A stretch of DNA of 60,643 nucleotides from Verrucomicrobiaceae bacterium (GTDB lineage: Bacteria; Verrucomicrobiota; Verrucomicrobiia; Chthoniobacterales; JAATET01), in the NCBI GenBank assembly GCA_027488755.1, contig JAIYAZ010000093.1, positions 1 to 60,643 on the forward strand. Direction: 5' to 3'. The position numbers and the translations under genes were made by a program. The first letter of the stretch is position 1. Every line of letters begins with the position of its first letter. The notes beneath the pieces were generated by a model that saw nothing but the letters and a program-made list of their open reading frames with translations, was not told the DNA's origin and did not search any database. Below are positions 24,670 through 58,226 of the stretch, piece after piece.

Positions 24670-24679
24670 AATCCCCCCC
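24670..24679 (+). promoter_or_regulatory. AATCCCCC-type leader directly before start codon
   Basis: AATCCCCCCC directly abuts the ATG at 24680, where a Shine-Dalgarno would normally sit. The same octamer precedes the starts at 29370, 35835, 42604, 49897 and 58227. Confidence 0.4.
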
Positions 24680-26848
24680 ATGAACATTCCAATCTGGAAG
24701 CTCCTCGCCGTTGCCGCGAGCCTGCTCGGCCCCGCCGCGCCGGCCGCGGCGGCGGATCCCCGCCCCGTCACCTGGACCGAGCCCGGCCACGACTCGCAGG
24801 ACTCCATGCCCCTCGGCAACGGTGACCTCGGGCTCAACGTCTGGACCCAACCCGACGGAATCGTCCGCTTCTACCTCTCGAAAACCGACGCGTGGAGCGA
24901 AGCCCCGCGCAGCGAGCTCGTCAAACTCGGCCGCGTCGCCCTCGCGCTCTCGCCCAACCCCTTCGCCGGCGCGCAGGACTTCCGCCAAACGCTCGACCCG
25001 CTAACCGCCGCCCTCACCCTCTCCGGCGGCGGCTGCCGCGTGCGCATCTGGATCGACGCCAACGCCCCCGTCGTCCGCGTCGAAATCACCGCCGACCAGC
25101 CGCTCACCGCCACCGTCCAGCTCGAACCCTGGCGCACCGAGCCCAAGGGCAAGGTCACCGCCGACGTCGTCGTCCCCGACGATCCCGCCGGCATCACCTG
25201 GTATCACCGCAACGCCGCCACCCGCGTCGATCCCCAACTCGCCGACCGCACCTTCGGCGGCCGCCTTTTCGGGCCCGGACTCGCGCGCACCTCCCTGCGC
25301 GAACTCACCTCCGCGAAACCCGCCCGCACCCAAACCCTCATCCTCGTCGCGCTCACCACCCCCGCGGGCCCGCTCGCCGACTGGACCGCCCGGCTCAACG
25401 AAATCGCCGCCACCGCCGCCGCGCAGGATCCCGCCCGCGCCTGGGCCGCGCACGTCCGCTGGTGGCGCGAATTCTGGGACCGCAGCCACATCGTCGTCAC
25501 CGGCGACGCCGACGCCGAGCGCGTCACCGACGGCTACGCGCTCCAGCGCTTCATCACCGCCGCCTCCGGCCGCGGCGCTTATCCGATCAAGTTCAACGGC
25601 TCGATCTTCGTCACCGACTTCCCCGGCAACACCACGAAGGACAAGGTCACAAAGGAAGTCATTCCGGCTCCCATGAACGCCGACGAACGCGCCTGGGGCG
25701 GCCAGTATTGGTTTCAAAACACCCGCCCGATGTATTGGCCCCGCCTCGCCGCCGGGGACTACGACCTCATGCTCCCGCTCTTCCGCATGTATCGCGACAT
25801 GCTCCCGCTGAATTCCCGGCGCGTCCGCGAATTCTACGGCCACGACGGCGCCTACTTCCGCGAGACCGCGCCGTTCTGGGGCGACCTCGGGAAAATCAAA
25901 CCCGAGGACAAGGGCAGCTACACCCAGCACTACTACCTGCCCATCCTCGAACTCTCCGCCATGGGCCTCGATTATTACGACCACACCGGCGACGAGACCT
26001 TCCTCCGCGACACGCTCCTGCCCGTCGCCACGGCCGGCCTCACGTTCTACGACGAGCACTTCCCCCGCGACCCGCAGGGCCGCCTGCTTCTCGAGCCGGT
26101 GAACTCCATCGAGATGTTCTGGAAGGTGCGTAACCCGCTCCCCGACCTCGCCGCGCTCCACGTCCTCCTCCCGCGGCTCCTCGCCCTCCCTCCCGACAAG
26201 GTCCCGCCCGCCGAACGCAAACGCTGGCAGGCCCTGCTCGCCGCGCTGCCGCCCATTCCCATTGGCGAGAAGGCCGGCCAGCGCGTCCTCCTGCCCTACG
26301 AGGGGGAACAAACCGCGCCCGGTCACAACACCGAGGTCCCCGAGCTCTACGCCGTTTACCCCTTCGCCCTCTACGGCGCCGGCCGGCCCGATCTCGACCT
26401 CGCCCGCGCCACGTTCGCCGCGCGCGCCATCAAGCGCACGAAATGCTGGCACCAGGATCCCGTCTGGGCCGCCTCGCTCGGCCTCGCCGAGGAAGCCCGC
26501 CGCGACGTGGTCGTCAACCTCACCAATCGCGACCCGCGCCTCCGCTTCCCCGCGTTCTGGGAAAAGGGCCACGACTTCGCCCCCGACCAGGACAACGGCG
26601 GCAACGGCGAACTCGCCCTCCAGCGCATGCTCCTCCAGACCGACGGCCGTCGCCTCCTGCTTCTCCCGGCCTGGCCCGCCGGGTGGTCCGCCGACTTCAA
26701 GCTCCACGCCCCCGGCCGCACCGTCGTCGCCGGCCGCGTGGACAAAGGCCGCCTCGTCGCCCTCGACGTGACCCCCGCCGCGCGCCGCGCCGACGTGGAA
26801 TTTCTCGGCCCCGTCGCCCCCGATCTCCTCCCCCCGAAAAAGCCATGA
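24680..26848 (+). CDS. DUF5703-type putative glycoside hydrolase, secreted (copy 2)
   Basis: A 722-residue paralog of the protein at 20135. A signal peptide (~1-25) precedes PVTWTEPGHDSQDSMPLGNGD. Shared family motifs are SMPLGNGDLGLNVW, WWREFWDRSH, GRGAYPIKFNGSIF, WFQNTRPMYW and EPVNSIEMFWKVRNP. The enzyme is expected outside the cytoplasm. Its stop overlaps the start of the alpha/beta-hydrolase gene (ATGA), and that gene in turn overlaps the acetylesterase-type gene, giving a three-gene translationally coupled unit that may remove sugars and acyl groups together. Function is inferred only from family resemblance to (alpha/alpha)6 glycosidases. Confidence 0.8.
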   Translation: MNIPIWKLLAVAASLLGPAAPAAAADPRPVTWTEPGHDSQDSMPLGNGDLGLNVWTQPDGIVRFYLSKTDAWSEAPRSELVKLGRVALALSPNPFAGAQDFRQTLDPLTAALTLSGGGCRVRIWIDANAPVVRVEITADQPLTATVQLEPWRTEPKGKVTADVVVPDDPAGITWYHRNAATRVDPQLADRTFGGRLFGPGLARTSLRELTSAKPARTQTLILVALTTPAGPLADWTARLNEIAATAAAQDPARAWAAHVRWWREFWDRSHIVVTGDADAERVTDGYALQRFITAASGRGAYPIKFNGSIFVTDFPGNTTKDKVTKEVIPAPMNADERAWGGQYWFQNTRPMYWPRLAAGDYDLMLPLFRMYRDMLPLNSRRVREFYGHDGAYFRETAPFWGDLGKIKPEDKGSYTQHYYLPILELSAMGLDYYDHTGDETFLRDTLLPVATAGLTFYDEHFPRDPQGRLLLEPVNSIEMFWKVRNPLPDLAALHVLLPRLLALPPDKVPPAERKRWQALLAALPPIPIGEKAGQRVLLPYEGEQTAPGHNTEVPELYAVYPFALYGAGRPDLDLARATFAARAIKRTKCWHQDPVWAASLGLAEEARRDVVVNLTNRDPRLRFPAFWEKGHDFAPDQDNGGNGELALQRMLLQTDGRRLLLLPAWPAGWSADFKLHAPGRTVVAGRVDKGRLVALDVTPAARRADVEFLGPVAPDLLPPKKP

Positions 26849-27825
26849 GCATCACCCGCTTCCTCCTCCCCCTCCTTCTCCTCGGCTCCGCCACCGCCGG
26901 CGCCCAGCCGCTCGCGACCTTCATGACCGCGCCGCCGCCGGAGGTCATCCCCTACGCAAATCGCGGCGGCCAGGAGCTCGTGCTGAACACCTTTCGCCCC
27001 GCCGGCCTCAAGCCCGGCGAAACCCGCCCCGCCATCGTCTGGATTCACGGCGGCGCGTGGATCGGCGGCAACACCGACGGCTTCATGCCGCTCGCCCGCT
27101 ACTTCGCGAGCCGCGGGATGGTCGCTTTCAACATCACCTACCGCCTCGCGAAACCCGGCGAAACCGGCGTGGGCGACTGCATCGCCGACTGCCGCTCCGC
27201 CGTCCGTTACATCCGCGCCCACGCCGCGGAACTAGGCGTCGACCCGAACCGCATCGCGGTCATCGGCGACTCCGCCGGCGGTCACCTCGCCGCGGCCCTC
27301 GGCACGCTCCCCGGATTCGATCACCCCGACGACGACGTGAAAATCTCCAGCCGTCCCGACGTCAAGATCCTCTGCAACCCCGTGCTCGACCTTAAGGAGG
27401 ACGACTGGATTCGCTTCGCCGTCGGCGGCCCCGCCCTTGCCGACCGCAAGACCACCCCGCGCCCCGATTCGCCCGAGGCCGTCGCCACCGCCCGCGCGCT
27501 GTCGCCCATCGACCACGTCGCGCCCGGGCAGCCTCCCGCCCTCATCCTGCACGGCCGTGCCGATCACGTCGTCCCGCTCAGCCAGGCCGAGCGCTTCCTC
27601 GCCGCCGCCCGCGCCGCCGGCAACCGCTGCGAACTCATCGTCCTCGAGGACAACATCGGCCACGCCTTCATCATCGCCGGCTACCGCTGGCCCGAGTCCG
27701 TTGTCGTTGACGCCGTCCGCCGGGTGGATGAATTTCTCGCCGCCCTCGGTTGGATCCAAGGTCCCCCCACGCTCACCACGTCCAATCCCCCCGCCTGGGC
27801 CACCCCGACGCCCAAGAAAAAATGA
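26845..27825 (+). CDS. Secreted alpha/beta-hydrolase (putative carbohydrate esterase)
   Basis: A 326-residue protein with a signal peptide MSITRFLLPLLLLGSATAGAQ; its ATG overlaps the previous stop. It has the hormone-sensitive-lipase/BD-FAE-like layout: oxyanion motif HGGAW (68-72), nucleophile elbow GDSAGGH with S143, acid D240 in HGRADHV, and H273 in NIGHAF. An intact triad suggests an active esterase, likely removing acetyl or other acyl groups from polysaccharide; a peptidase is less likely. The C-terminal tail after ~300 is Pro/Thr-rich. It overlaps the next gene by four bases. Confidence 0.85.
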   Translation: MSITRFLLPLLLLGSATAGAQPLATFMTAPPPEVIPYANRGGQELVLNTFRPAGLKPGETRPAIVWIHGGAWIGGNTDGFMPLARYFASRGMVAFNITYRLAKPGETGVGDCIADCRSAVRYIRAHAAELGVDPNRIAVIGDSAGGHLAAALGTLPGFDHPDDDVKISSRPDVKILCNPVLDLKEDDWIRFAVGGPALADRKTTPRPDSPEAVATARALSPIDHVAPGQPPALILHGRADHVVPLSQAERFLAAARAAGNRCELIVLEDNIGHAFIIAGYRWPESVVVDAVRRVDEFLAALGWIQGPPTLTTSNPPAWATPTPKKK

Positions 27826-29342
27826 CCCCCCTCCGTTTTCTCGCCCTCGTCCTCCTCGCCGGCTCCGCCCGCGCCGCGGAGTTCGCCCCCGTGTTCACCG
27901 ACAACGCCGTGCTCCAGCGCGACATGCCCGTTACCGTTTGGGGCTCGGGCCGCGACGGCGAAAAGGTCACCGTCGAATTCGGTAAACACCAGGCCACCAC
28001 CACCGCGCAAAACGGCCGCTGGCAGCTCACCCTGCCCGCCATGCCCGCCGCCGAGGGCGCGCCCCTGCGCCTGCGCGGTGACAACGTCGTCGAATTGAAC
28101 AACGTCGCCGTCGGCGAAGTCTGGATCTGCTCCGGCCAGTCGAACATGGAATGGCGCCTCAACCAAAGCTCGCCCTTCACCGACGCCGTGCTCGCCGCCC
28201 CCAACGAGCCCGCCATCCGCCAGATCAAGGTCCCGCTGCGCCCCTACGCCGGCGACCCGCTCCCCGCCTTCGCGTGGACGCCCTTCAACGCCAAATCCGC
28301 CGGCTTCTTCAGCGGGGTCGCCTTCTTCTTCGCCGCCAAGCTCCACCGCGAACTCGGCGTCCCCGTCGGCCTCGTGAACTGCAGCTTCGGCGGCACGCCC
28401 ATCGAGGCCTGGATGAGCCGCGAGGCCATCACCCGCGCGGGCTCGCAAAAACTCCTCGAGGACGACGCGAAAAAAGCCGCCGCCTATCCCGACGCCGCCG
28501 CCTACGAAAAGGCCTGGCAGTCCTACCTCGTCGCCCGCAAGGCCTGGGATGCCGCGCAGAAGGCCGGCAAAACGCCCGCCGAACTCGGCCCCCAACCCGC
28601 CGAACCCTACGGCTTCCGCACCAAGGGCCGCCCCGCCGGCTTGCGCGAATCCATGCTCGGAGTCATCACCCCCTACACCGCGCGCGGTGTGCTCTGGTAT
28701 CAGGGCGAAAACAACGCCGGCCGCCCGCAGGACTATGCCGCCCTGCTCACCCAGCTCATTGCCTCCTTCCGCGAGGACTGGCGCCGGCCCGACCTGCCCG
28801 TCTTCATCGGGCAGATTTCCTCGCCCTCGCCGAACTGGCCCGACGAACAGGACCCCTACGCCCGCATCCGCGAAGCCCAGCGCGCCGTCGCCGTGGCCAC
28901 GCCCCACTCCGGCTTCGTCGTCTCGCTCGACTACGGCGTCCGCGCCCAGGTTCACCCTCCCGACAAACAACCCATCGGCGAACGCTTCGCCGCCCTCGCC
29001 CTGCAAAAGGTCTACGGCCGCAAGGATGCCGCCGGCCAGAGCCCCTGGGCCCGCGAGGCCCGACTCGGCCCGGATGCCGTCACCGTGAGCTTCGCCGACC
29101 TCGGCGGCACCCTCGTGGCGCGGGATCCCGCGATCCCCACGCTTGAACTCCAACTGCCCGACGGCACCTGGGTGCCCGCCACCGCGAAAGCCGCCCCCGA
29201 CGGCCAGTCCCTCCGCGTCGCGCTGCCGCCCAACGCCCGGCCCCAGGCCGTTCGCTACGCGTGGCGAAACTTCTGCCCGCTCTCGCTCTACTCCGCCAAC
29301 GGCCGGCCCGTCAGCCCCTGGAGCCTTCCGGTCACTCCCTAA
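27822..29342 (+). CDS. Sialate O-acetylesterase-type SGNH carbohydrate esterase, secreted
   Basis: A 506-residue protein with a short signal peptide (MTPLRFLALVLLAGSARA), starting in an ATGA overlap. An N-terminal beta-domain (FTDNAVLQRDMPVTVWG) typical of this family precedes the SGNH core: CSGQSNMEW with S107, VLWYQGENN, and a C-terminal DYGVRAQVHPPDKQPIGERF holding the catalytic His (H378). Family members remove O-acetyl groups from sialic acids, but most environmental relatives act on other acetylated plant or microbial sugars, which suits this cluster better since no sialidase is present. Confidence 0.88.
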   Translation: MTPLRFLALVLLAGSARAAEFAPVFTDNAVLQRDMPVTVWGSGRDGEKVTVEFGKHQATTTAQNGRWQLTLPAMPAAEGAPLRLRGDNVVELNNVAVGEVWICSGQSNMEWRLNQSSPFTDAVLAAPNEPAIRQIKVPLRPYAGDPLPAFAWTPFNAKSAGFFSGVAFFFAAKLHRELGVPVGLVNCSFGGTPIEAWMSREAITRAGSQKLLEDDAKKAAAYPDAAAYEKAWQSYLVARKAWDAAQKAGKTPAELGPQPAEPYGFRTKGRPAGLRESMLGVITPYTARGVLWYQGENNAGRPQDYAALLTQLIASFREDWRRPDLPVFIGQISSPSPNWPDEQDPYARIREAQRAVAVATPHSGFVVSLDYGVRAQVHPPDKQPIGERFAALALQKVYGRKDAAGQSPWAREARLGPDAVTVSFADLGGTLVARDPAIPTLELQLPDGTWVPATAKAAPDGQSLRVALPPNARPQAVRYAWRNFCPLSLYSANGRPVSPWSLPVTP

Positions 29343-29359
29343 AATCCTCCCCCACAAAA

Positions 29360-29367
29360 AATCCCCC
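29360..29367 (+). promoter_or_regulatory. AATCCCCC leader octamer
   Basis: AATCCCCC lies two bases before the ATG at 29370. There is no purine-rich Shine-Dalgarno in the 27-base gap after the previous stop. Confidence 0.4.
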
Positions 29368-29369
29368 GC

Positions 29370-31133
29370 ATGAAAACCACCACCCTCGTTCCCGCCCTCG
29401 CGTTCGCCGCCCTCTCCATGGCGTCCGCCGCCACGCCGACGCCTGCGCCTGCGTCCAGCCCATCCGCCGCCGCCAACGCCGAACGGATGAAGTGGTTCGA
29501 CGACGCCCGCTTCGGCATGTTCATCCACTGGGGCGTCTACGCCGTCCCCGCCGGCGAATGGCAGGGCAAACCCGTCAACGGCATCGGCGAATGGATCATG
29601 AAAAACGGCCGCATCCCCGTGAAGGACTACCGCGCCTTCGCCAAGGATTTCACCGCCGCCAACTACGACCCCGCCGCCTGGGCGAAACTCGCCCACGACG
29701 CCGGCATGCGCTACATCGTCATCACCTCCAAACACCACGACGGCTTCGCGCTCTACGACTCCAAGGTCACCGACTGGGACGTCATGAATTCCGGTGCCAA
29801 CCGCGATCTCCTCGCTCCGCTCGCCGCCGCCGCCCGCGCCCAGGGGCTCAAATTCGGCCTCTACTACTCCCAGGCGCAGGATTGGAACCACCCCGGTGGC
29901 GGCAAGGCCGGCGGCAATAAAAGCTGGGACCCCGCGCAGGACGGCGACTATGACGCCTACCTCGCGAAGATCGCCCTCCCGCAGGTGAAGGAAATTGTCG
30001 CCGCCTACCAGCCCGACATCCTCTGGTGGGACACGCCCACGGAAATGACCCATGAGCGCGTGAAGCCCTTCGCCGAGTTCATGGCCACGCACCCCGCGAT
30101 CATCAACAACAACCGCCTCGGCAGCGGCTTCGCGGGCGACACCAAGACGCCCGAGCAGAACATCCCCCCGCGCGGCTACCCCGGCGAACGCTTCGAGGTC
30201 TGCATGACCATGAATGACACCTGGGGCTACAAAAAGAACGACCACAACTGGAAGAGCGTCCGCCAGATCCTCCGCAACCTCTCCGACATCTCCAGCAAGG
30301 GCGGGAACTTCCTCCTCAACGTCGGCCCGACCCCCGACGGCGTCATCCCGCCCGAAAGCGTCGAGCGCCTCCAGGCCGTCGGCCGCTGGATGGACGTCAA
30401 CGGCGAAGCGATTCACGGCACGCAGGCCGGACCGTTCCCGCGCCGCCTGCCGTGGGGCCGCGTGACCCAGCGGCAAAACGCCGACGGCTCCCAAACGCTC
30501 TACGTCCACGTCTGGGATTGGCCGGAGGATCGCCGCGTCGTGCTCCCGACCGTCACCGTCGCGCCCAAGTCCGCCCGCTGGCTCGCCGGCGGTGACACGA
30601 CGACCAAAATCGTCCCGGAAGGGCTCGAAATCTCGCTGCCCGAAAACCCCCTCGACCCCGACGTGTCCGTCGCGCGCCTCGATTTTGCCGCGCCGGTGAA
30701 GGTCACCCAGGAGCCCTTCATCACGCCCGGCGCTGACGGCCGCGTCGCCTTCGGCGCGCTCGATGCCGATGCCCACGGCCACTACGACGGCAACATCCAG
30801 ACCCGCGGCAGCGGCACCGACGTCTATCTCACCGATTGGAAAAACGCGAAGTGGAGCCTCGAATACCGCTTCCAGGCCCCCACCGCCGGCACCTGGGAGC
30901 TGTCCGCCGAGGTCGCCGCCCCCGACCCGACGTCCCTCACGCTTGAGGCGAACAAGGTCCCGCAAACCGTCACCGTCCCCGCCACCGGCCCGGGCCTCAC
31001 CTGGAAAATCGTCCCGCTCGGCAAAATCAACCTGCCCGCCGGCGAGACCGGCTTTACGCTCAAGGGCCTGCCGGAAGGCTGGAAGCCCCTCAGCGTCCGC
31101 CACGTCTGGCTCACCCCCGTCAAAACGCCCTGA
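29370..31133 (+). CDS. GH29 alpha-L-fucosidase, secreted (copy 1)
   Basis: A 587-residue protein with a signal peptide (~1-20). GH29 motifs are clear: RFGMFIHWGVYAVPAGEW, ITSKHHDGFALYDS, and ILWWDTPTEM, where the Asp after WW (D221) is the expected nucleophile. GGNFLLNVGPTPDG follows. Residues ~440-587 form a C-terminal beta-sandwich ending in ETGFTLKGLPEGW. It should release terminal alpha-L-fucose in the periplasm or outside the cell. A close paralog lies at 49897 with the same architecture and length. The next gene starts 14 bases downstream. Confidence 0.93.
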   Translation: MKTTTLVPALAFAALSMASAATPTPAPASSPSAAANAERMKWFDDARFGMFIHWGVYAVPAGEWQGKPVNGIGEWIMKNGRIPVKDYRAFAKDFTAANYDPAAWAKLAHDAGMRYIVITSKHHDGFALYDSKVTDWDVMNSGANRDLLAPLAAAARAQGLKFGLYYSQAQDWNHPGGGKAGGNKSWDPAQDGDYDAYLAKIALPQVKEIVAAYQPDILWWDTPTEMTHERVKPFAEFMATHPAIINNNRLGSGFAGDTKTPEQNIPPRGYPGERFEVCMTMNDTWGYKKNDHNWKSVRQILRNLSDISSKGGNFLLNVGPTPDGVIPPESVERLQAVGRWMDVNGEAIHGTQAGPFPRRLPWGRVTQRQNADGSQTLYVHVWDWPEDRRVVLPTVTVAPKSARWLAGGDTTTKIVPEGLEISLPENPLDPDVSVARLDFAAPVKVTQEPFITPGADGRVAFGALDADAHGHYDGNIQTRGSGTDVYLTDWKNAKWSLEYRFQAPTAGTWELSAEVAAPDPTSLTLEANKVPQTVTVPATGPGLTWKIVPLGKINLPAGETGFTLKGLPEGWKPLSVRHVWLTPVKTP

Positions 31134-31147
31134 TTTTTCTCCCCGCC

Positions 31148-35812: not shown

Positions 35813-35820
35813 AAAGCCCC

Positions 35821-35834
35821 ATCCCCAATCCCCC
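35821..35834 (+). repeat. Two ATCCCC-type units before start codon
   Basis: ATCCCC followed by AATCCCCC abuts the ATG at 35835. It is the same octamer as upstream of several other genes here. Confidence 0.45.
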
Positions 35835-37454
35835 ATGATGAAACGACTCGCCCTCCTCGGCGCGGCGCTGGCGCTTTGCGCCGCGCCGCTGGCCGCTGCT
35901 CCGCGCTCCCCGCTCAACCAGGTTTTTCAATTCACCTACGCCGACACCTGCTCGGATTGGGCCGATGGATCCACCTCGCGCGGCCGGCTCTATCTTTGGG
36001 TGCCCGAAGAATGCCGGCGCGTGCGCGGTCTCGTCATTCTCGCGACGAATGTCCCCGAGCACATGCTCGTCGGGCACGCCGCGATTCGCGAAGTCTGCCG
36101 CGCCAATGATCTCGGGCTCGTCTGGTCGGTGCCGACGTTCTGGAATTTTGCCAAGGGCACAAAGGGCCAGGAGGCCACCCAGGTCGCCTTCCTCCAAAAG
36201 CTGCTCGACGGCCTCGCCCGCGTTTCGGGTTACGACGAAGTCGCCCGCGTGCCCTGGGTGCCCGTCGGGGAATCCGGTCACCTGCTTATGGTCGTCGGCC
36301 TCGTGGACCAAAAGCCCGATCGCTGCATCGCGGCCATTTGCGTGAAGAATCCGCATTGGCCGAAGAACTTCACCGTTCCCATGCTCTGGACGCTCGGCAC
36401 CGCGCAGGAGTGGGGCCAATCGAAATCCGACATCCGCACGGGCTGGAGCACCACGGCCGCCGGTTATGGCGGCTGGGCCTCCGGACGCGCCGCGCGCGAT
36501 TGGCCGCTCAGCATGATCATCGAGCCCGCCACCGGGCACTTTTATTGCACCGACGAAATGGCGGACTACTTCGCCCGCTACATCAACGCCGCGGTGAAGG
36601 CGCGCCTCGACTCCGCCGGCGGCGACACGCTCCGCCCCGTCGACCTCAACGCCGGCTTCCTCGCCAATCTCCCCGTGCCCGGTCAAACCGACGAGCGCGT
36701 GATCCCCTACGCCGAGGCGAAGCCGGAGGAACGCAATCGCGCGTGGTTCTTCACCGCCGACCTCGCCCGCCGCGCGCAGGAACTCAGCCGCACCAACTGG
36801 CAGGCGGCCACCCAGCTCGTCGGCTTTACCGCCGACGGCAACTGCACCGCAACCCCGTTCAGCTTCAACTCGGTCACGGAAATCAATGTCCAGACCGACG
36901 GCGAGTTCGGCGTGAAGGCGCACCTGCTCGACGCCATCCCCGAGGGCTTCGCCGCCGCGGGGGAAAAGCTCGCGCGCACCGACGGCGAGCCCACCGTGGA
37001 ATGGATCTGCGGCCCGTTCGCCCCGGCCGGCCCCAACCGCTTCCGCATCGCGCTCGACCGCACATGGAAGACCGGCGCCGCGTCCTACCTCATCGCGCAG
37101 CAGCCCGGCACCGCCGACGTCCGCCGCTCCGTGCAGCCCGCCATGGTCAAGCTGCTCGAAAACAAGGAGGGCCCGCCGCAGACGATCACCTTCGAACCCA
37201 TCGCCGATGTGCCGGCCAGCACCCGCCGCGTCCCGCTTGCCGCGAAATCCGACGCCGGCCTGCCGGTGGAATTCACCGTGCTCTCCGGCCCGGCCGTGAT
37301 CGAAAACGGTGAGGTTGTCCTCACCCCGATCCCGCCGCGCGCCAAGTATCCCGTGGAGGTCACCGTCGGCGCCTGGCAGTGGGGCCGGGCCTCCGAGCCC
37401 AAGGTGCAAACCGCGGCCATGACCAACCAAACCTTCCGCATCCTCGCTCCATAA
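35835..37454 (+). CDS. Secreted esterase-like protein of unrecognised family (copy 1)
   Basis: A 539-residue protein; the first of two adjacent ATGs was taken and gives the signal peptide MMKRLALLGAALALCAAPLAAA. I do not recognise the family by name. The first ~270 residues read like an alpha/beta-hydrolase: LYLWVPEECRRVRGLVILATN, a nucleophile-elbow-like VPVGESGHLL (S147), and a late His in EPATGHFYC (H235). The elbow is GxSxH rather than GxSxG. A C-terminal beta-domain follows (TITFEPIADVPASTRRVPLAAKS cut by a GLPVEF motif). The protein at 42604 is a paralog with matching start (NQxxQF) and end. A secreted carbohydrate esterase is the best guess; a non-catalytic binding protein cannot be excluded. 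Confidence 0.7.
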   Translation: MMKRLALLGAALALCAAPLAAAPRSPLNQVFQFTYADTCSDWADGSTSRGRLYLWVPEECRRVRGLVILATNVPEHMLVGHAAIREVCRANDLGLVWSVPTFWNFAKGTKGQEATQVAFLQKLLDGLARVSGYDEVARVPWVPVGESGHLLMVVGLVDQKPDRCIAAICVKNPHWPKNFTVPMLWTLGTAQEWGQSKSDIRTGWSTTAAGYGGWASGRAARDWPLSMIIEPATGHFYCTDEMADYFARYINAAVKARLDSAGGDTLRPVDLNAGFLANLPVPGQTDERVIPYAEAKPEERNRAWFFTADLARRAQELSRTNWQAATQLVGFTADGNCTATPFSFNSVTEINVQTDGEFGVKAHLLDAIPEGFAAAGEKLARTDGEPTVEWICGPFAPAGPNRFRIALDRTWKTGAASYLIAQQPGTADVRRSVQPAMVKLLENKEGPPQTITFEPIADVPASTRRVPLAAKSDAGLPVEFTVLSGPAVIENGEVVLTPIPPRAKYPVEVTVGAWQWGRASEPKVQTAAMTNQTFRILAP

Positions 37455-37473
37455 TCTCCCCGCCCTTGGCTCG

Positions 37474-37481
37474 CATCCCCC
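37474..37481 (+). promoter_or_regulatory. CATCCCCC leader octamer (variant)
   Basis: CATCCCCC directly abuts the ATG at 37482, a one-base variant of the AATCCCCC leader found elsewhere in the window. Confidence 0.35.
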
Positions 37482-42592: not shown

Positions 42593-42600
42593 AATCCCCC
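42593..42600 (+). promoter_or_regulatory. AATCCCCC leader octamer
   Basis: AATCCCCC starts right after the GH106 stop and ends three bases before the ATG at 42604. Confidence 0.4.
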
Positions 42601-42603
42601 GCC

Positions 42604-44442
42604 ATGATTCCCCGATTCCTCTTCGCCCTCGTGTTGTCGCTTTGTCCGGCCCTCCCGGCCGCCCCGCCGCAAGCGGGGGATGCGGACGTGAATCAGATTT
42701 ATCAATTCTTCGTCCCCTCCACGGCGGCAAAGGCCCGGCCCAACTCCGGTGCGTATCTCTGGCTGCCGCCCGACGCGCCGCGGATTCGCGCGGTGATGGT
42801 GGCCGTGCACAACGGACTGCCGGTTTCCATCCTCCAGAGCCCGGCCGTCCGTGAGGTTTGCCGCCGCCACGGCATCGCCCAGATTCTGCTCACGCCGAAC
42901 GGCAGTGAGATCGGCCCCGTGATGCTGAAGGATCTGGCGTTCGACATCACCGACCCCGAGCGCACCGCGGTTTACGACGGCTACATGGACCGCCTGGCCG
43001 AGGTCTCGGGCCACCCCGAGCTCAAGACGGCTCCGGTCGTCCCGCTCGCGCACTCGGCCTACTGCAGCTTCCCGTTTGACGTCGCGATGCGCGATCCCTC
43101 GCGCAGCCTCGCGCTGCTGCCCATCAAGGCGGGGATTCCCGACGCCTACGTCTTCTACGGCGCGGGCGGCAAGGCGAAGGTGCCGGATCCTGGTCGCAAC
43201 CTCGGCGGGGTGCCCATCCTGTTCCTGCAGTCGTCCAGTCAGGAAACGGTCGGCTGGTCGGCGTATCCGCGCGGCGGCTCCAGCCTCCGCACCTATCGCC
43301 GGGATCGCCCTGACCATCCGGGCGACACCTACGAACCGCGCAACGAATTGTTCGGCGTGCAGTGGGAAATGATGAGCGGGCATTTTGATCTCCTGCCGCG
43401 GGACTATGCCTACGTCGCGGCATGGCTCGACGCGGTGGCGACCGCGCGGCTGCCCGCGCAACCCGGTCAGCCGCTCCGGCCCCTCACGCTGCGCGACGGG
43501 TGGCTCATCAATCCCGCCGTGCCCGTGAACGGTCCGCTCCCGGCGGACTTCCCGGTTCCCGCGCCCTACGCGGAGTTCACCGGCAACCGCACGGATGCGC
43601 TGTGGTATCCGAACCGCGCACTCGCCGAGGCGCAGTTTGCGCTCTACCGCGACGAGCCGCGCCGGGAGATCGAGCTGATCACGCTGCTCGATGCGTCGGG
43701 CAAACCGATCAGCCTCGCGCACGGGCACATGGCGGAGGTTCCGAAGAACAGCCTGCCGCTCCGGGGCAACGGCACCTTTGTGCTGACGGCGCGGCACCTC
43801 ACCAGCCCGCCCGAGATCTGCACGGTGCGAGAACGCGGGCACGAGAAAAAGTCCCCGGCTCCCTGCGCGTTTGCCAACGTCGGCTTCCCGGGCAAAACGG
43901 CGCTGCCCGTTTCCGCGCTGCCGCTGCGGTTCGACGCGAATGGCGCTCCGCTCGAATGCGTGGGGCAGGAGGTCGTTCGCGGACCGGATCGGGCGGGCGA
44001 CGTCCGCTTCACGCTGCGGATCACCCGCCACCGCCTCGCCTCCGAGGTCGGCTACCTGCAGAACTATCCGCGCATCTTCCACGAGGGCGATGCCCGCTTC
44101 GCCGCCACGGGCCGCACCGCCAAACTAGAGTGGACCTTGCCGGAACTCGCCAAGGGCGGGGCGGCGCAGACGATTGACTTCCCGGCGGTGAAGGACGTTT
44201 CGGCCCGCGCGGGCTCCGTCCCCCTCGGCGCGAAGAGCTCCGCGGGTTTGCCGGTGGAGTATTTTGTTGTGCAGGGTCCCGTGGTGGTGCGCGGCGACCG
44301 CCTCGTTCCCTTCGATGTGCCCAAGGGCCAGACGAAACCGATTGCGGTCACGGTGGGGGCCTACCAAAACGGCCGCTATGATCCCGGGGCCCTCGTCCAG
44401 CCTGCGCCCACGGTCTATCAGACGTTCCGATTGCTGCCCTGA
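42604..44442 (+). CDS. Secreted esterase-like protein of unrecognised family (copy 2)
   Basis: A 612-residue protein; the ATG was chosen for the signal peptide MIPRFLFALVLSLCPALPAAP. It is a paralog of the protein at 35835: NQIYQF near the mature start, YLWLPPDAPRIRAVMVAVHN, AVREVCRRHGIAQILL, a Ser in VVPLAHSAYCSFPF (S151), a late His in MSGHFDLLPRDYAYVA (H260), and the C-terminal GLPVEYFVVQGPVVV. The elbow is A-H-S-A-Y, even further from GxSxG than in copy 1, yet Ser and His are kept at similar spacing. I cannot name the family. It ends seven bases from a convergent gene. Confidence 0.72.
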   Translation: MIPRFLFALVLSLCPALPAAPPQAGDADVNQIYQFFVPSTAAKARPNSGAYLWLPPDAPRIRAVMVAVHNGLPVSILQSPAVREVCRRHGIAQILLTPNGSEIGPVMLKDLAFDITDPERTAVYDGYMDRLAEVSGHPELKTAPVVPLAHSAYCSFPFDVAMRDPSRSLALLPIKAGIPDAYVFYGAGGKAKVPDPGRNLGGVPILFLQSSSQETVGWSAYPRGGSSLRTYRRDRPDHPGDTYEPRNELFGVQWEMMSGHFDLLPRDYAYVAAWLDAVATARLPAQPGQPLRPLTLRDGWLINPAVPVNGPLPADFPVPAPYAEFTGNRTDALWYPNRALAEAQFALYRDEPRREIELITLLDASGKPISLAHGHMAEVPKNSLPLRGNGTFVLTARHLTSPPEICTVRERGHEKKSPAPCAFANVGFPGKTALPVSALPLRFDANGAPLECVGQEVVRGPDRAGDVRFTLRITRHRLASEVGYLQNYPRIFHEGDARFAATGRTAKLEWTLPELAKGGAAQTIDFPAVKDVSARAGSVPLGAKSSAGLPVEYFVVQGPVVVRGDRLVPFDVPKGQTKPIAVTVGAYQNGRYDPGALVQPAPTVYQTFRLLP

Positions 44443-44449
44443 CGGCCGG

Positions 44450-48621: not shown

Positions 48622-48789
48622 GGAAAGGGGGAGGGGACTTCCATTGATACCGGAATTGCCGGCGCGTGCAAATTTTGCGGCAATACCGAGGCCAAAACTT
48701 GGAATAATGCTGGCCGCGGACGGGCGGGCTTGGGAGGCTGGCGATCCCCCGATCCGCCGATCCCCCGGACGGGCGTGATCCTCCCCCCC
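48622..48789. promoter_or_regulatory. Divergent intergenic region with inverted repeat
   Basis: This is the longest gap in the window (168 bases) and the only divergent one, so promoters for both directions should lie here. It contains an inverted repeat, CGGAATTGCCG (48651-48661) and CGGCAATACCG (48678-48688), matching at 10 of 11 positions, and inside it a perfect small dyad GCAAATTTTGC (48668-48678). A weak leftward promoter (TTGCAC, 16 bases, TATCAA) can be drawn over the repeat. The dyads may be an operator, but no regulator gene is in the window. Confidence 0.4.
48743..48766 (+). repeat. Three tandem 8-base GATCCCCC units
   Basis: GATCCCCC, GATCCGCC, GATCCCCC run head to tail, and a further GATCCTCC lies just before the ATG at 48790. 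Period and sequence match the AATCCCCC array at 49849. Confidence 0.55.
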
Positions 48790-49830: not shown

Positions 49831-49848
49831 GACCCCGGCTCGTTTCCA

Positions 49849-49896
49849 AATCCCCCCAATCCCCCAATCCCCCAATCCCCCAATCCCCCAATCCCC
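49849..49896 (+). repeat. Six-copy AATCCCCC tandem repeat abutting the GH29 start codon
   Basis: Units at 49849-49857 (six C), 49858-49865, 49866-49873, 49874-49881, 49882-49889 and 49890-49896 (four C) run straight into the ATG at 49897. On the minus strand this reads as G-runs of about five separated by ATT, a strong G-quadruplex-type pattern on the template strand. An 8-base period is prone to slippage, but copy-number change would not shift the reading frame because the array lies outside the coding region. Confidence 0.85.
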
Positions 49897-51660: not shown

Positions 51661-51691
51661 GGCCGCCGCTTTTGCGAACTTCGAACCTCCC

Positions 51692-54115
51692 ATGAAAACA
51701 TCCCCCTTCCTCGCCTGCGCGCTGCTCGCGGCGATTCTTCCCGTGCTTCCCTGCGCCGCCGCCAACCCTCCGGTGGTCTTCTGGGCCGCGGACAACCTGG
51801 CCCCGGGCGACGTCGCCCTGCTCTATGGCGGCGGTCTTGCCGCCGTGAAGGAGGTTCGCGTCTGGCGGGTGGCCGATGACCTCAAGGCCGCCACGCCGTT
51901 GGTGGCCCCTCCCTCCGCGTTTCGCCCGGCGGCGGTGCAGGCGACCGACGCATCCCTCAAGTTCCGCCTGCCACCCGCGCTTACCCCCGGCGTGTTCGCC
52001 GCGCAGCCCGAGGGCGGAGCGGTCACTGTGCTCAACCGCCCGCAGCTCTGGTTTTTCCAGCCCGAGACGCTGCGCCCGGGACTCGTCGAGAACGAGGCCG
52101 CGCCCGGCGACGCGGTGCAGGTGATCGGAAAGGATTTTCTGCTGCCCGGCGACCTCGGCCGGCCGGTGATCGAACTGCGGGCCGCCGCCGGCGGAGCGCC
52201 GCAGCGGATCACGCCCGACGGCCCCGAGAAGTTTTCGCTCCGCGCCACCCTGCCGAAGTCCCTCGCCCCCGGGAAATACGAACTGCGCGTCTCCAACGGT
52301 TATGGCGGGGCGGCCGGCTGGAGCGAGCCGTTTCCGGTCACGATCAAGGTTCCCGACGTCTGGCCATCCAAGGTCTATAACGTGAAGGATTTTGGGGCCC
52401 TCGGGGACGACACCTCCGACGACACCTACGCCGTGCGCGCGGCGCTGGCCGAGGCCGAGAAGAATGGCGGCGGAGTCGTGTTTTTCCCCTGGGGCATCTA
52501 CCGCCTCACCGACTGGATCTGCATTCCCCGGCGGACGATCCTTCGCGGGGAAAACCGCGACGCCAGCATCCTCAAGTGGCCCGTGGACGAGCCTCTGACC
52601 GAAGCCGACATCACCCCCGCGGCGATCTACGGAGATACCTCCTACGGCGTCGAGGATCTGAGCCTGATCGCGCGCAAGGTGCGGACGATTTTTTATGACC
52701 TCAGCTCCGCCGACCGCGTCGTGAATGAACTCAAGCCCCGCGTGAATCCCGCCGGTTCGCGCGACGTCTTCTTCCGCCGCGTCGCCTTTCACCACTGGCT
52801 GCTCTGCAGCCACCCGTATCGCAACGCCGAGCTCTGGTCCACGGTCTACAAGTCGCCCGGTGAGAACTTCGCAAACAAATACGGCTCGATCCGGAACTTC
52901 GAGGTCAGCGACTGTCTCTTCCAGGGCGGCAATCAGCAGTTCTCCAACATCCGAAACGCGCGCCTGCTCCGAAACTCCTTCAGCAATGGCATGGGCTATG
53001 CCTGGACCTGCCTCGGAGGGGGCGCGTCGCACGTCGTGGCCGAGGGCAACGACCTCCGCGGTTCGTCCTCGTGGGGCTACGGCTTGATCGGGATGAACCG
53101 GATCTACTCCGCGCGGAACATCTGTCACAACTTCGTGCAGGGCGAACGCGAGGCGATGACGCTCGACATCAGCGCGCTCACCGCGACGCCGGCGGGGCCC
53201 GTGCCGAAGGGCGCGCATCCCATCGTCGGCCGAAACATGGCCTGGTTCGGCCCCCCCGCCGGCGTGAAGGGGAAGCAACTCACGCTCTCCGGGATCAAGG
53301 CCGCTCCGAACGAGTTCGCCGGCAAAACGGCCATGATCCTTGACGGCCCCGGAGCCGGCCAGTTCCGCGAAATCGTCCAAAATACGCCTACGGAATTCAC
53401 GCTCGAGCGCCCGTGGGACGTGCCCCCCACCGCGCAGAGCATCATCGGCCTGTGGGACCTCTCGCGCTACATGATCGTCTACCGCTGCGAGGGCTACGAC
53501 ACCTCCGCGTTCTCGCAGCTCTACGGGAGCTACTACGAGTTCATCGTCGACCGCTGCACCGTGGACCGCAATCAGGGCATCTGGGGACAGTCCGGTTGGT
53601 TCGTGCAGCTCCGCGACAACGTGGTGCGCTACGGCCAGAGCTACCATTCCCGCATCGGCATTCCCGGCACGAACCGCGAACGTAACGCCCCATTCGGCTT
53701 CAACGGTCTGGTGGACGGCAACCTGCGGATCACGAAGGCGGGATCCGCGCAATACGGACTTCCTGGCGGCAAGGCGATCTTCGTGAAGGATGTCGTCGGT
53801 CGCACGGTCCCCGGCGTGCGCGGCTGCATCATCCGCGGCAACCAGCTTGCCTACAACCAGCGCATCGTGCTCTCGCCCGACGAAAATCCCGCGCGGAAGC
53901 CCGGCCGCAATGACTTCCTGCGCATGGTCGACGCGGTCATCGACCGCAATACGATCCGCCGCGCCACCGTCGGCATCAACGTCGGCCCCTGCACGGCCGG
54001 CGTGCTGCTCTCCGACAACCGATTCGAGGACGTCACGACGCCGCTGCTTGTTGCGCCGGGCGTCCTTAACTTAGGCTCTCCCCAATCCCCGACCCAATCT
54101 CCCGTAAATCCATGA
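51692..54115 (+). CDS. Secreted pectate-lyase-3-type beta-helix protein with N-terminal beta-domains
   Basis: An 807-residue protein with signal peptide MKTSPFLACALLAAILPVLP (plus CAAA). Residues ~25-225 are beta-rich, IPT/TIG-like (ELRVSNGYGGAAGWSEPFPV). From ~228 comes VYNVKDFGALGDDTSDDTYA with GGGVVFFPWGIYRL, the hallmark of the pectate-lyase-3 / phage-tailspike-type beta-helix superfamily, running to the C-terminus with many short beta turns. The family includes glycosidases and lyases, so the exact reaction is open. Its stop overlaps the GH28 gene (ATGA), implying related substrates. The last codons run through pyrimidine-rich CCCCAATCCCC sequence like the leaders of other genes. Confidence 0.82.
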   Translation: MKTSPFLACALLAAILPVLPCAAANPPVVFWAADNLAPGDVALLYGGGLAAVKEVRVWRVADDLKAATPLVAPPSAFRPAAVQATDASLKFRLPPALTPGVFAAQPEGGAVTVLNRPQLWFFQPETLRPGLVENEAAPGDAVQVIGKDFLLPGDLGRPVIELRAAAGGAPQRITPDGPEKFSLRATLPKSLAPGKYELRVSNGYGGAAGWSEPFPVTIKVPDVWPSKVYNVKDFGALGDDTSDDTYAVRAALAEAEKNGGGVVFFPWGIYRLTDWICIPRRTILRGENRDASILKWPVDEPLTEADITPAAIYGDTSYGVEDLSLIARKVRTIFYDLSSADRVVNELKPRVNPAGSRDVFFRRVAFHHWLLCSHPYRNAELWSTVYKSPGENFANKYGSIRNFEVSDCLFQGGNQQFSNIRNARLLRNSFSNGMGYAWTCLGGGASHVVAEGNDLRGSSSWGYGLIGMNRIYSARNICHNFVQGEREAMTLDISALTATPAGPVPKGAHPIVGRNMAWFGPPAGVKGKQLTLSGIKAAPNEFAGKTAMILDGPGAGQFREIVQNTPTEFTLERPWDVPPTAQSIIGLWDLSRYMIVYRCEGYDTSAFSQLYGSYYEFIVDRCTVDRNQGIWGQSGWFVQLRDNVVRYGQSYHSRIGIPGTNRERNAPFGFNGLVDGNLRITKAGSAQYGLPGGKAIFVKDVVGRTVPGVRGCIIRGNQLAYNQRIVLSPDENPARKPGRNDFLRMVDAVIDRNTIRRATVGINVGPCTAGVLLSDNRFEDVTTPLLVAPGVLNLGSPQSPTQSPVNP

Positions 54116-55431
54116 AAGAAATCCTCCTCACCAGCTACCGTCGCGATTCCCACGCGCAACTCGACTCCCCCGCCATCCAGGCCGCGCTCGACGCCTGCTC
54201 CTCCGCCGGCGGCGGCACCGTCACGCTCGACCCCGGCACCTACCGCTGCGGCACGCTCTTCTTGCGCGACAATGTCACGCTGCATCTGCGCCGCGGCGCC
54301 GTCATCATGGGCAGCGCGCACCTCAAGGACTACCCGATGCCGGCCACGCCGTTCGTCGACGCCGTGGGCCACACCCGCGGCCGCGCCCTGCTCGTTGCGG
54401 ACCACGTGAGCGGATTTGCGCTCCGCGGCGAGGGCGTGATCGACGGCAATGGCGGCGCGTTTGCCCTCAACGACCCCGAGCATCTCCAGCGCCCGTTCCT
54501 GATCCGTCTCGTCGACGCGAAACGCTTCGAAATTCGCGGCCTCGTCATTCGGAATTCCGCCGCGTGGACCGTTCACCTGCTCAATTGCGAGGACGCCCTC
54601 ATCGAGCACGTCCGCATCGACAGCCGTATCAACGAAAACAACGACGGCATCGACATCGACAGCAGCCGCCGCGTGGTCGTGCGCCATTGCGAAATTCTCA
54701 CCGACGACGACGCCATCTGTCTGAAGGCCACCCGCGCCGAACCCTGCGAGGACGTGGACGTCCACGATTGCGTGCTCTCGACCGAGTGCAGCGCACTCAA
54801 GCTGGGCACGGAATCCTACGGCGACATCCGCCGCGTGAAACTCCACGACTGCCACGTGCTCTACGCCGCCACCGGCGCGATCAAAATCCTCACCAGCGAC
54901 GGCGGAGTTTACGAGGACATCGAGATCCGCAACGTCACCATCGACAAGGGCACCGGACCGATCTTCTTCCGCCTCGGTTCCCGCGGGCGCACCTACGCCC
55001 CCGGCTGCGAACGCAAGGGCCCGGGCATCATTCGCAACGTCGTGATCTCCGGCGTGCGCGCCAATGTCTTTGTCCCGCCGAAGGACACGATTGTTCCCTT
55101 CACCGGCGAGCCCATGCCGCCCGCGGCGTTCTCCGGCATGCTCTTCACCGGCGTGCCCGGGCACCCCATCGAGGACATCACGCTGGAGGACTGCGAGCTC
55201 ACGTTCATCGGCGGCTATCAGGGCGACCCGGCGGCCATCCGCACGCCCGAGCAGCCCGAAATGTATCCCGAGCACTTCTACTTCGGCGCGCTTCCCGGCT
55301 CGGCCGCGTTCTTCCGGCACGCCCGCAACATCACCCTGCGCAACGTGCAGCTGAAGGTTACGGCCCCCGATTCGCGACCGCTCCTCGCCAGCGAGGACGT
55401 CGAAGGTCTGCACGACGATCTTCCGCGCTAA
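54112..55431 (+). CDS. GH28-family glycosidase, no signal peptide
   Basis: A 439-residue protein starting MKEILLTSYRRDSHAQLDSP with no leader, so probably cytoplasmic. The GH28 beta-helix motifs are NNDGIDIDSS (D178, D181) and LTDDDAICLK (D199, D200), which supply the catalytic Asp residues. The usual GHG is replaced by LGTESYG (G232-T233-E234) and the RIK motif by A-I-K258. Loss of the GHG His and the Arg is compatible with an exo-acting or non-galacturonate specificity such as an unsaturated or substituted uronide, not classical endo-polygalacturonase. It is translationally coupled to the upstream beta-helix gene. Confidence 0.87.
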   Translation: MKEILLTSYRRDSHAQLDSPAIQAALDACSSAGGGTVTLDPGTYRCGTLFLRDNVTLHLRRGAVIMGSAHLKDYPMPATPFVDAVGHTRGRALLVADHVSGFALRGEGVIDGNGGAFALNDPEHLQRPFLIRLVDAKRFEIRGLVIRNSAAWTVHLLNCEDALIEHVRIDSRINENNDGIDIDSSRRVVVRHCEILTDDDAICLKATRAEPCEDVDVHDCVLSTECSALKLGTESYGDIRRVKLHDCHVLYAATGAIKILTSDGGVYEDIEIRNVTIDKGTGPIFFRLGSRGRTYAPGCERKGPGIIRNVVISGVRANVFVPPKDTIVPFTGEPMPPAAFSGMLFTGVPGHPIEDITLEDCELTFIGGYQGDPAAIRTPEQPEMYPEHFYFGALPGSAAFFRHARNITLRNVQLKVTAPDSRPLLASEDVEGLHDDLPR

Positions 55432-55436
55432 CCGCG

Positions 55437-56666
55437 ATGAAAATAGCCTGGCTCTCCCTCCTCGCGCTGGTCGCCGTCTCCGGCCTGCGGGCGCAAGCGC
55501 CCGCGCCGGAACTGCCGTGGGATCTGGAGGCCATGGCGAAGCCGCCGGAGGAGTTTGCCTCGCCGGCCATCCAAGCGTCCGATCCGCGCATCCGCGCGGT
55601 GTTTTTTGCGGGCCCGGACTACCGGGGCAAGCCCACGCGCGTGTTTGCCTGGCTGGGCGTGCCGGAGGTTCCCGCGGGAAAGACCGTGCCCGGCATCGTG
55701 CTGCTCCACGGCGGCGGCGGCACCGCGTTTGAATCCTGGGTGAAGCTCTGGCTCGACCGCGGCTATGCGGCCATCGCGATCGACAGCTTCGGCGGACTCC
55801 CCGTCCCGCTCGACGCCAAACCGCGGCCGCGCAATCCCGATGGCGGGCCGCCCGGCGGCAGCCTCGCCTTCCAGCAACTGGGCGAGCCGCTCGGCGACCA
55901 ATGGCCCCGGCATGCCATCGCGGCCGCGATCTCCGCCCACTCGCTGCTCCGTGTCCAGCCCGGCGTGGACCCCGCGCGCATCGGCGTGACCGGCATTTCG
56001 TGGGGCGGATACCTCACGTGCATCTTTGCGGGGGTCGATTCCCGGCTGCGTTTTGCGGCGCCCGTCTATGGGTGCGGCCATTATGGGGACACAACCTTTG
56101 CCGGCACCCTGAAAAAGCTCCCGCCTGCGAAGGCCGCGATCTGGTGGGAGCACTGGGATGCCTCGCTTTACCTCCCGCGCGTGCGCGTGCCCATCCTCTG
56201 GGCCAACGGCACGAACGATCATTTCTTCTGGCTCCCCGCGTGGCGGCAAAGCTACCGGCAGACGCCCACTGCACTGCGCACGCTTTGTCTGCGCCCGGGC
56301 ATGAAGCACGGCCATCCGCCCGAGGGCGATCCGCGCGAGATCACCGTCTTCGCCGACAGCATCGTGCGCGGCGGAGAGCCGCTGCCCGCCATCGTTGAGG
56401 AGACGCGAAGCGGGGATCGCCTTGAGGTCCGCTTCCGCGCCGTGCGCCCGGTCGTGCGCGCGGAGCTCGTGTTCACCCTTGATGACACGTCACCGTGGGA
56501 GAAGCGCGTCTGGCAGTCGCAGCCGGCGGAGCTGGCGGGATCAAGCGCCCGGGCCCGTCTGCCGGCCGGAGTGCGCGGATACTTCCTCAATCTCACCGAC
56601 GACCGCGGATGCCTCGTGAGCAGCGAACCGCGGATTTCTCCCGACGAAATGCCGCTCGCCCCGTGA
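55437..56666 (+). CDS. Secreted alpha/beta-hydrolase, acetyl-xylan-esterase/dienelactone-hydrolase-like
   Basis: A 409-residue protein; the ATG five bases after the GH28 stop gives signal peptide MKIAWLSLLALVAVSGLRAQ. Motifs: VLLHGGGGTAFESWV (oxyanion region), GISWGGYL with nucleophile S188, a downstream Asp in WANGTNDHFFW, and His in MKHGHPP, completing a triad. A C-terminal ~100-residue beta-domain follows. It resembles CE7/S9-like esterases in polysaccharide loci; a deacetylase or feruloyl-type esterase is likely. The stop overlaps the GTG of the GH43 gene (GTGA), so the two are probably co-translated. Confidence 0.83.
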   Translation: MKIAWLSLLALVAVSGLRAQAPAPELPWDLEAMAKPPEEFASPAIQASDPRIRAVFFAGPDYRGKPTRVFAWLGVPEVPAGKTVPGIVLLHGGGGTAFESWVKLWLDRGYAAIAIDSFGGLPVPLDAKPRPRNPDGGPPGGSLAFQQLGEPLGDQWPRHAIAAAISAHSLLRVQPGVDPARIGVTGISWGGYLTCIFAGVDSRLRFAAPVYGCGHYGDTTFAGTLKKLPPAKAAIWWEHWDASLYLPRVRVPILWANGTNDHFFWLPAWRQSYRQTPTALRTLCLRPGMKHGHPPEGDPREITVFADSIVRGGEPLPAIVEETRSGDRLEVRFRAVRPVVRAELVFTLDDTSPWEKRVWQSQPAELAGSSARARLPAGVRGYFLNLTDDRGCLVSSEPRISPDEMPLAP

Positions 56667-58135
56667 CCCCGCGGTTCCGCAATCCCGTTCTTCCCGGCTT
56701 TTATCCCGACCCGAGCGTCTGCCGCGTCGGTGCGGATTTTTTCCTCGTGAACAGCTCGTTCGAATTGTTCCCGGGTCTGCCCATTCACCACAGCCGCGAC
56801 CTCGTGCACTGGCGCTTGATCGGGCACGCGCTGGACCGACCCACGCAGGTCGATTTGCGTCACCGCCCCAGCTCGAAGGGCATCTTCGCGCCCACGCTCC
56901 GCTTTCATGCCGGCACGTTCTACCTCATCACGACCGACGTCGACGGCCTCGGCAACTTCATCCTGCGCGCCACCGATCCGGCCGGACCGTGGTCCGATCC
57001 CTTGCCTTTCTCCGCGGACGGCATTGATCCCTCGCTGCTGTTTCACGAGGGCCGCGCCTACGTGACGTTCTCGGCCTTCGGCCAGCGGGGAATCTTTGGC
57101 GGCGAGCTCGATCTCGAAACGGGCCGCTGGCGGTCGGGGCCGGACCTTTGGTGGAGCGGCACGGGCGGCAAATACCCCGAGGGCCCGCACCTCTACGTTC
57201 GCGACGGCTGGTTTTACCTGCTCATTTCGGAGGGCGGCACCGAGGCGGGCCACATGGTCACGATGGCCCGCAGCCGCCGGCCCGAGGGCCCCTACGAGCC
57301 CGCGCCCCACAACCCGCTGTTGAGCCATCGCAGCGTCGATCATCCCCTGCAGGCAACCGGGCACGCCGATCTCGTCGAGGCTGCGGACGGTTCGTGGTGG
57401 ATGGTTTTCCTCGCCACCCGCCCGCTGGGTTATCCGCCCATGCACCACCTCGGCCGCGAAACCTGCCTGGTGCCCGTGGACTGGCCCGCCGGTGGCTGGC
57501 CGCACGTCGAGAGCCCGCTCGCCCACGAGCTGCCCGCCCCCGGCGCGGATCGGGAATCCCCGTGGCCCGAACTTTCCCCCTGGGTCGCGCGCCGCCCGCT
57601 CCCGCCCGGAGTCGCGCTGCCGCCGGCCGACGTGCGCGACTGGGAGCTGACCTGCCTGCCGGGTTCGCTCGATGACGAGGCGCCCGTGGCCCTCGTCGCG
57701 AGGCGACAGACCGCCTTTGCCACGACGCTGGCCGCGACCCTTCACCCGCCGGCCGCGCCGAACCACGCCGCGCTCGTGGTCATCATGAACGAACGCCATT
57801 ACGCCTCGTGCCGTCTCGTCGGCGGACCCGATGGCGGCCGCCTGGAAGTGCTCCAGCGCATCGGCGACGTGCGGGCCACGCTCGCCAGCCGCTCGTGGCC
57901 GGTGCCGGCTCCCGCCCGCGTGCGCATCCGCACCACGCCGACGCACTACCACTTCGAACTCGCGAACGGGGAGGGGGACTGGCAGCCTTTGGCGGCGGTG
58001 GAAACGCGGCACCTTTCCACCGAGCTCGCGGGAGGCTTCACCGGCGTGCTCCTGGGCCTCCACGCGGGGGGCAGTCCGCCGGATGTCGCCGCCTTCCGCG
58101 CCATCGAATTCACCGCCGGCGGCGATGACCGCTGA
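56663..58135 (+). CDS. GH43-family beta-xylosidase/alpha-L-arabinofuranosidase, no signal peptide
   Basis: A 490-residue protein with a GTG start overlapping the previous stop; this start puts the conserved RNPVLPGFYPDPSVC at the usual place and leaves no room for a leader. Catalytic residues of the five-bladed propeller are visible: base D16 (YPDPS), modulator D122 (GIDPSLLF) and acid E173 (KYPEGPHLY). Residues ~310-490 form the C-terminal beta-sandwich common in GH43 xylosidases (WELTCLPGSLDDE). A cytoplasmic enzyme releasing xylose or arabinose from imported oligosaccharides is expected. Confidence 0.92.
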   Translation: MTPRFRNPVLPGFYPDPSVCRVGADFFLVNSSFELFPGLPIHHSRDLVHWRLIGHALDRPTQVDLRHRPSSKGIFAPTLRFHAGTFYLITTDVDGLGNFILRATDPAGPWSDPLPFSADGIDPSLLFHEGRAYVTFSAFGQRGIFGGELDLETGRWRSGPDLWWSGTGGKYPEGPHLYVRDGWFYLLISEGGTEAGHMVTMARSRRPEGPYEPAPHNPLLSHRSVDHPLQATGHADLVEAADGSWWMVFLATRPLGYPPMHHLGRETCLVPVDWPAGGWPHVESPLAHELPAPGADRESPWPELSPWVARRPLPPGVALPPADVRDWELTCLPGSLDDEAPVALVARRQTAFATTLAATLHPPAAPNHAALVVIMNERHYASCRLVGGPDGGRLEVLQRIGDVRATLASRSWPVPAPARVRIRTTPTHYHFELANGEGDWQPLAAVETRHLSTELAGGFTGVLLGLHAGGSPPDVAAFRAIEFTAGGDDR

Positions 58136-58205
58136 AAAATTGGCGTGAAAACCGGCCGGGATTGAAGCAGGTTTCGCGGCGCAGGCGGTTTCCCGTCGGC
58201 ACCTC

Positions 58206-58222
58206 AATCCCCCAAATCCCCC
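58206..58222 (+). repeat. Two AATCCCCC units before a start codon
   Basis: AATCCCCC at 58206-58213 and 58215-58222, separated by one A, end four bases before the ATG at 58227. The rest of the 91-base gap after the GH43 stop shows no clear terminator or promoter. Confidence 0.5.
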
Positions 58223-58226
58223 GCCC

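Follow-up and report, generated by a model that had tools for sequence, protein, structure and literature searches.

The window, which is the whole stretch of 60,643 nucleotides analysed here, is a sugar-polymer-degradation cluster of an Opitutaceae-like genome. It encodes GH29, GH95-like/DUF5703, GH106, GH43, GH28 and esterase proteins, many of them with signal-peptide-like N-termini, and the nearest named relatives of one of its GH29 proteins belong to Opitutaceae and other Verrucomicrobia MAGs. Genome GC is 67%, the + strand is the coding strand for nearly all genes of the window, and this coding strand is C-rich (GC skew of about -0.3). An Rfam search of the window returned no match and a check of it for tRNA found none. 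A C-terminal tail, RRFLRLRVT(N/T)P, is common to successive large secreted proteins (window 1300-1346, 9020-9058, 15650-15693 and 20100-20138); similar tails occur on proteins of contigs C119 and C21, and the tail may be a signal for C-terminal sorting or anchoring. The leaders that concern us here are the following.

24670..24679, + strand: AATCCCCCCC, immediately 5' of ATG 24680 of a DUF5703/GH95-like protein; operon gap of 31 nt
29360..29369, + strand: AATCCCCCGC, ahead of ATG 29370 of a GH29 alpha-L-fucosidase
35827..35834, + strand: AATCCCCC, adjoining ATG 35835 of a secreted protein without Pfam match
37474..37481, + strand: variant CATCCCCC, adjoining ATG 37482 of a DUF5703 protein
42593..42603, + strand: AATCCCCCGCC, within the 11 nt that separate the GH106 stop codon from ATG 42604
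48742..48789, + strand: degenerate 8-bp array of CGATCCCC (3.2 copies), then GATCCTCCCCCCC, adjoining ATG 48790 of a GDSL lipase family protein
49849..49896, + strand: AATCCCCC copies including a perfect 5.5-copy 8-bp array, running into ATG 49897 of a GH29 protein
58206..58226, + strand: two AATCCCCC copies plus GCCC, ahead of ATG 58227
20105..20134, + strand: ...CACGCC at the coding end of the upstream gene, ahead of ATGA overlap start 20135

Where 3.4 copies of the octamer AATCCCCC would be expected, the window has 15, a number reached in 0 of 100 shuffles, with 13 copies on the + strand and 2 on the - strand. Six genes (24680, 29370, 35835, 42604, 49897 and 58227) have eleven of the 13 in their leaders, and the four copies outside leaders are within coding sequence (21355-, 27784+, 50045- and 60474+). 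A copy is found no more than 22 nt before 6 of the 23 starts, compared with a mean of 0.07 and a maximum of 2 starts in 5000 rounds of shuffling within each leader. The repeated octamer reported by the initial annotation is thus real, and so are the variants that it described ahead of 37482 and 48790. Its statement that the octamer ends 0-4 bases before the start is accurate for five genes (gaps of 2 nt at 24680 and 29370, 0 at 35835, 3 at 42604 and 4 at 58227) but not for 49897, where the closest complete copy lies at a distance of 7 bases and the ATG is adjoined by a truncated copy, AATCCCC. Full copies range from 1 to 5 per leader, operon-internal gaps ahead of octamer genes are short (11-31 nt), and signal-peptide-like N-termini downstream make most of these starts credible. 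Many genes of the same cluster have no AATCCCCC; at 20135, CC at positions -2/-1 comes from CCA, the last codon of the upstream gene, which gives the general start context without the octamer. The tandem array before 49897 occupies 49853-49896 with CCCCCAAT as its 8-bp unit, and the degenerate one before 48790 spans 48742-48767. The copy number of these two arrays may vary, and such variation could tune expression.

Outside the window the octamer is far less prominent. A first count of 17-19 octamer genes had included contigs fetched for holding matches, and the recount was made on contigs chosen without regard to the octamer and excluding the window (841 genes). Under a second-order position-specific model, AATCCCCC precedes 5 of these 841 starts against 1.3 expected, a mild enrichment, while the same model gives 0.04 expected for the window, where it precedes 5 of 21 called genes. 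The window is therefore a hot spot (5/21 vs 5/841, p 1e-6). C5 runs and TCCCCC outside it occur at about the rate predicted by the model. Within 20 nt of starts 19 copies are on the same strand and 1 on the opposite strand, in a partly biased sample in which AATCCCCC is also the commonest 8-mer at -20..-1. A whole-genome pattern, AATCCCCC-N0-14-ATG, looked striking against its backward version and was rejected, since a stop codon is part of that control and much of the difference can be put down to chance ATGs. The genome has 293 copies in total, and the majority are presumably words within coding sequence, which is the case for 83 of 136 in the sampled part. In relatives, orthologous GH29 starts end in ...caatcccaaccc, ...aatccccccaatccc, ...tttaatccc and the like, the exact octamer being missing; in these orthologues the character of the leader is kept and not its letters.

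None of the octamer genes has a Shine-Dalgarno (SD) sequence, as had been stated, though this holds equally for the whole genome. In a 1.375 Mb sample of the same genome, genes were called with a codon-based, home-made procedure that ignores leader sequence, and a start, always a predicted one, was considered confident when an in-frame stop lay no more than 60 nt upstream. SD 4-mers precede 9% of confident starts in this sample and 12% in the control interval, and matches of at least 6 nt to the anti-SD number 25 at starts and 21 in the control, of 1036. The identical procedure is able to detect SDs, because it found them in contigs of Planctomycetota (45% vs 15%) and Armatimonadota (56% vs 7%). 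These counts do not fit SD-led initiation, the purine-rich complement of the anti-SD not being enriched 5-12 nt before starts. The 16S gene is absent from the assembly of this genome; six relatives of the order carry the anti-SD CCUCC in their 16S, on the strand that was read. The genome also encodes bS21 and a bS1, a 732-aa open frame above the rpsA family cut-off. Leaderless initiation, in which the mRNA would begin at the start codon, seems less likely in view of the many octamer genes located in short same-strand operon gaps.

What precedes the starts instead of an SD is C. Position -1 is C in 67% and position -2 in 52% of confident starts, against a background of 36%, and leaders are C/T-rich and G-poor, with a G depletion that is specific to the start. 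Short operon spacers are likewise C/T-rich, and the hexamers enriched before starts form a family of words, mostly pyrimidine-rich. The sign of an AUG depletion near starts is weak (ATG/GAT 31/58 near starts, 45/72 upstream). In ten loci of Opitutaceae and related bacteria, C is at -1 in 20 of 20 confident starts and an SD in 0 of 20. Among relatives in the order, C at -1 reaches 46-58% in genomes of the same genus and 7% in one family of 45% GC, and orthologous starts are 64% identical at -1 where 43% is expected, in an underpowered comparison of only 33 pairs. SD-using Armatimonadota have C at -1/-2 raised too, to 54-59%, so the C bias need not substitute for an SD, and it may be spread more widely than SD loss.

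The strongest evidence that this context is selected comes from ATGA overlaps, in which position -1 coincides with the middle base of the last codon of the upstream gene. C occupies it in 84 of 133 overlaps; among all NNA codons the share is 10% (p 2e-50), and in other genes with an NNA last codon it is 18 of 83. Two codons that are rare elsewhere, CCA (41) and GCA (31), make up most of the 133 last codons. Out-of-frame ATGs are preceded by C in just 14.5% of cases, but internal in-frame Met codons are so in 58%, as a result of third-codon-position bias, and it is for this reason that the overlap test, rather than the raw frequency at -1, carries the argument. Since C is supplied there through otherwise rare codons, C before the start is selected beyond composition, and upstream coding sequence is bent to supply it. 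The upstream proteins of overlapping pairs, such as those at window 20135, 26845 and 54112, tend toward Pro/Ala ends, since the following start calls for CC ahead of it.

Predicted folding is in agreement with an open start region. A 60-nt stretch folds on average at -10.9 kcal/mol at starts, against -17.5 for the stretch upstream of them and -18.1 for the one downstream (p ~1e-15), and octamer genes are predicted to fold more weakly still (-7.4 vs -12.7 kcal/mol). There is a strong correlation between the G content of a leader and its structure (rho -0.65), and a C/T-rich, G-poor leader would thus be an effective way to keep the start open in a genome of 67% GC.

Taken together, we consider it likely, with a probability of roughly 0.7, that AATCCCCC is one spelling, over-used in this cluster, of a general translation start context of the lineage. 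The signal would be an SD-less tract of C/T-rich, G-poor RNA, roughly 10-20 nt long, that runs up to the AUG and has C, often CC, as its last letters. Such a tract could keep the start codon single-stranded, and the open leader would then offer the 30S subunit a landing place, probably through the long bS1. C at -1/-2 may help the start to be chosen in the exit-side mRNA channel, in the manner of a Kozak context. On this reading AATCCCCC is probably no element of its own. Its excess over the second-order model, strong in the window and slight elsewhere, stands against the one-spelling account; the part of it in the window would probably come from local duplication and slippage where a C-rich leader is tolerated or preferred. 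The earlier proposal of a translation-initiation or mRNA-level element is supported in part, since position before starts, single orientation, short operon gaps and the overlap test all speak for translation initiation; a fixed octamer as its unit is not well supported, given the 5 of 841 starts outside the window and the letters lost in relatives.

That the pattern is a mutational or compositional by-product, with a C-rich coding strand whose C tracts slip and duplicate in unconstrained intergenic gaps, is unlikely. The strong C skew, the perfect 8-bp slippage array and the ordinary frequency of C5 runs and TCCCCC outside the window all agree with it, but rare codons forcing C to -1 in ATGA overlaps contradict it for the general context, and neither the same-strand placement of the octamers near starts (in the partly biased sample) nor a G depletion and structure loss confined to the start is what it predicts. 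We find it distinctly improbable that AATCCCCC is a sequence-specific regulatory mRNA element, bound by a protein or small RNA and co-regulating genes of the cluster. The local hot spot and the first rank among 8-mers before starts, the latter again from the partly biased sample, would suit such an element; against it, the relatives' orthologous GH29 starts do without the exact octamer, the number of full copies varies between leaders, and many cluster genes have none. Pairing of the octamer with a G-rich segment of 16S rRNA seems very improbable: it could draw on the enrichment of C-rich words before starts and on several G4/G5 runs in the 16S of a relative, but the complement core GGGGATT is missing from this proxy, and the enriched words are many pyrimidine-rich spellings with no single complement. 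The mobile short repeat settling in intergenic gaps that was also suggested at first can hardly be entertained, for although several leaders hold at least two copies (49849-49889, 58206-58222 and loci L028 and L031) and one slippage array exists, the copies have a single orientation, adjoin start codons and share no flanks, and the genome's copies are for the most part expected to be coding.

The exception to the lack of SDs is rpsU. In this genome (L239, G000:C12:32062-32223:-) and in three genus-mates, AGGTGA lies 8 nt ahead of the ATG. Across 30 related genomes of the order (including loci L243-L271), which are not independent samples, a match of at least 6 nt precedes 18 of the 30 rpsU genes, 15 of them spaced 4-11 nt, against a background of about 2.4%. 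The SDs are of the types AGGTGA, AAAGGAGG and GAGGTGAT, and SDs are otherwise at background level where rpsU keeps one. In Flavobacteriales the SD of rpsU serves autoregulation of bS21 by ribosomes that lack bS21 (PMC9976891), and the likeness suggests that this feedback loop may extend past Bacteroidota. More tentatively, and at somewhat less than even odds, a C-based start signal, with C at -1/-2 closing an unstructured pyrimidine-rich leader, could replace the SD on Opitutales ribosomes, shape CCA/GCA last codons and leave the SD to bS21 autoregulation. If so, Opitutales would provide a second phylum with the logic, known from Bacteroidota, of SD-less initiation plus an SD on rpsU.

The way in which ribosomes locate starts without an SD has been studied mainly in Bacteroidia. 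If the one-spelling reading is correct, Opitutales would represent an independent, GC-rich solution with another sequence preference, and ATGA overlaps would offer a built-in comparative test, since the same bases are there subject to competing demands from coding and initiation. SD-based gene finders may misplace starts in these genomes. Within the phylum, few SD:anti-SD interactions and a conserved CCUCC have been described in Akkermansia and in Verrucomicrobia bacterium IMCC26134 (PMC10783764), which our genome resembles in having few SD interactions; searching that paper for terms on a C-rich, cytosine or pyrimidine start context gave no match, and searches of mostly open-access literature turned up nothing specific on such a C-rich context in Verrucomicrobiota or Opitutus. 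Short tandem slippage repeats are known from leaders and resemble the perfect 5.5-copy 8-bp array before 49897, but most octamer sites here are single-copy. The eukaryotic Kozak context, GCCRCCAUGG (quoted in PMC6847099), also has C at -1/-2 and needs no rRNA pairing; unlike it, the context described here has no dominant purine at -3, and bacterial operons with internal starts imply that there is no cap scanning. Another close likeness is to Bacteroidia, as studied in Flavobacterium johnsoniae (PMC6847099, PMC8710568, PMC9976891): SDs are missing genome-wide with the anti-SD kept in the 16S (here that of six relatives, on the strand read), structure at the start region is weak, as our predicted folds also indicate, the nucleotides just 5' of the AUG matter, and rpsU keeps its SD. 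In SD-independent initiation (same three papers) F. johnsoniae prefers A at -3, -6 and -12/-13, whereas A is at -3 in 16% and at -6 in 15% of our starts, so that this Kozak-like preference for A is not found and C at -1/-2 with C/T-rich tracts takes its place in a GC-rich genome. No Tyr is present in the bS21 encoded here, which therefore has no counterpart of Y54, the residue implicated in F. johnsoniae, so the mode of hiding the anti-SD may differ from that of Flavobacteriales. Starts that lack an SD and are C-rich point to a different way of finding the start codon.
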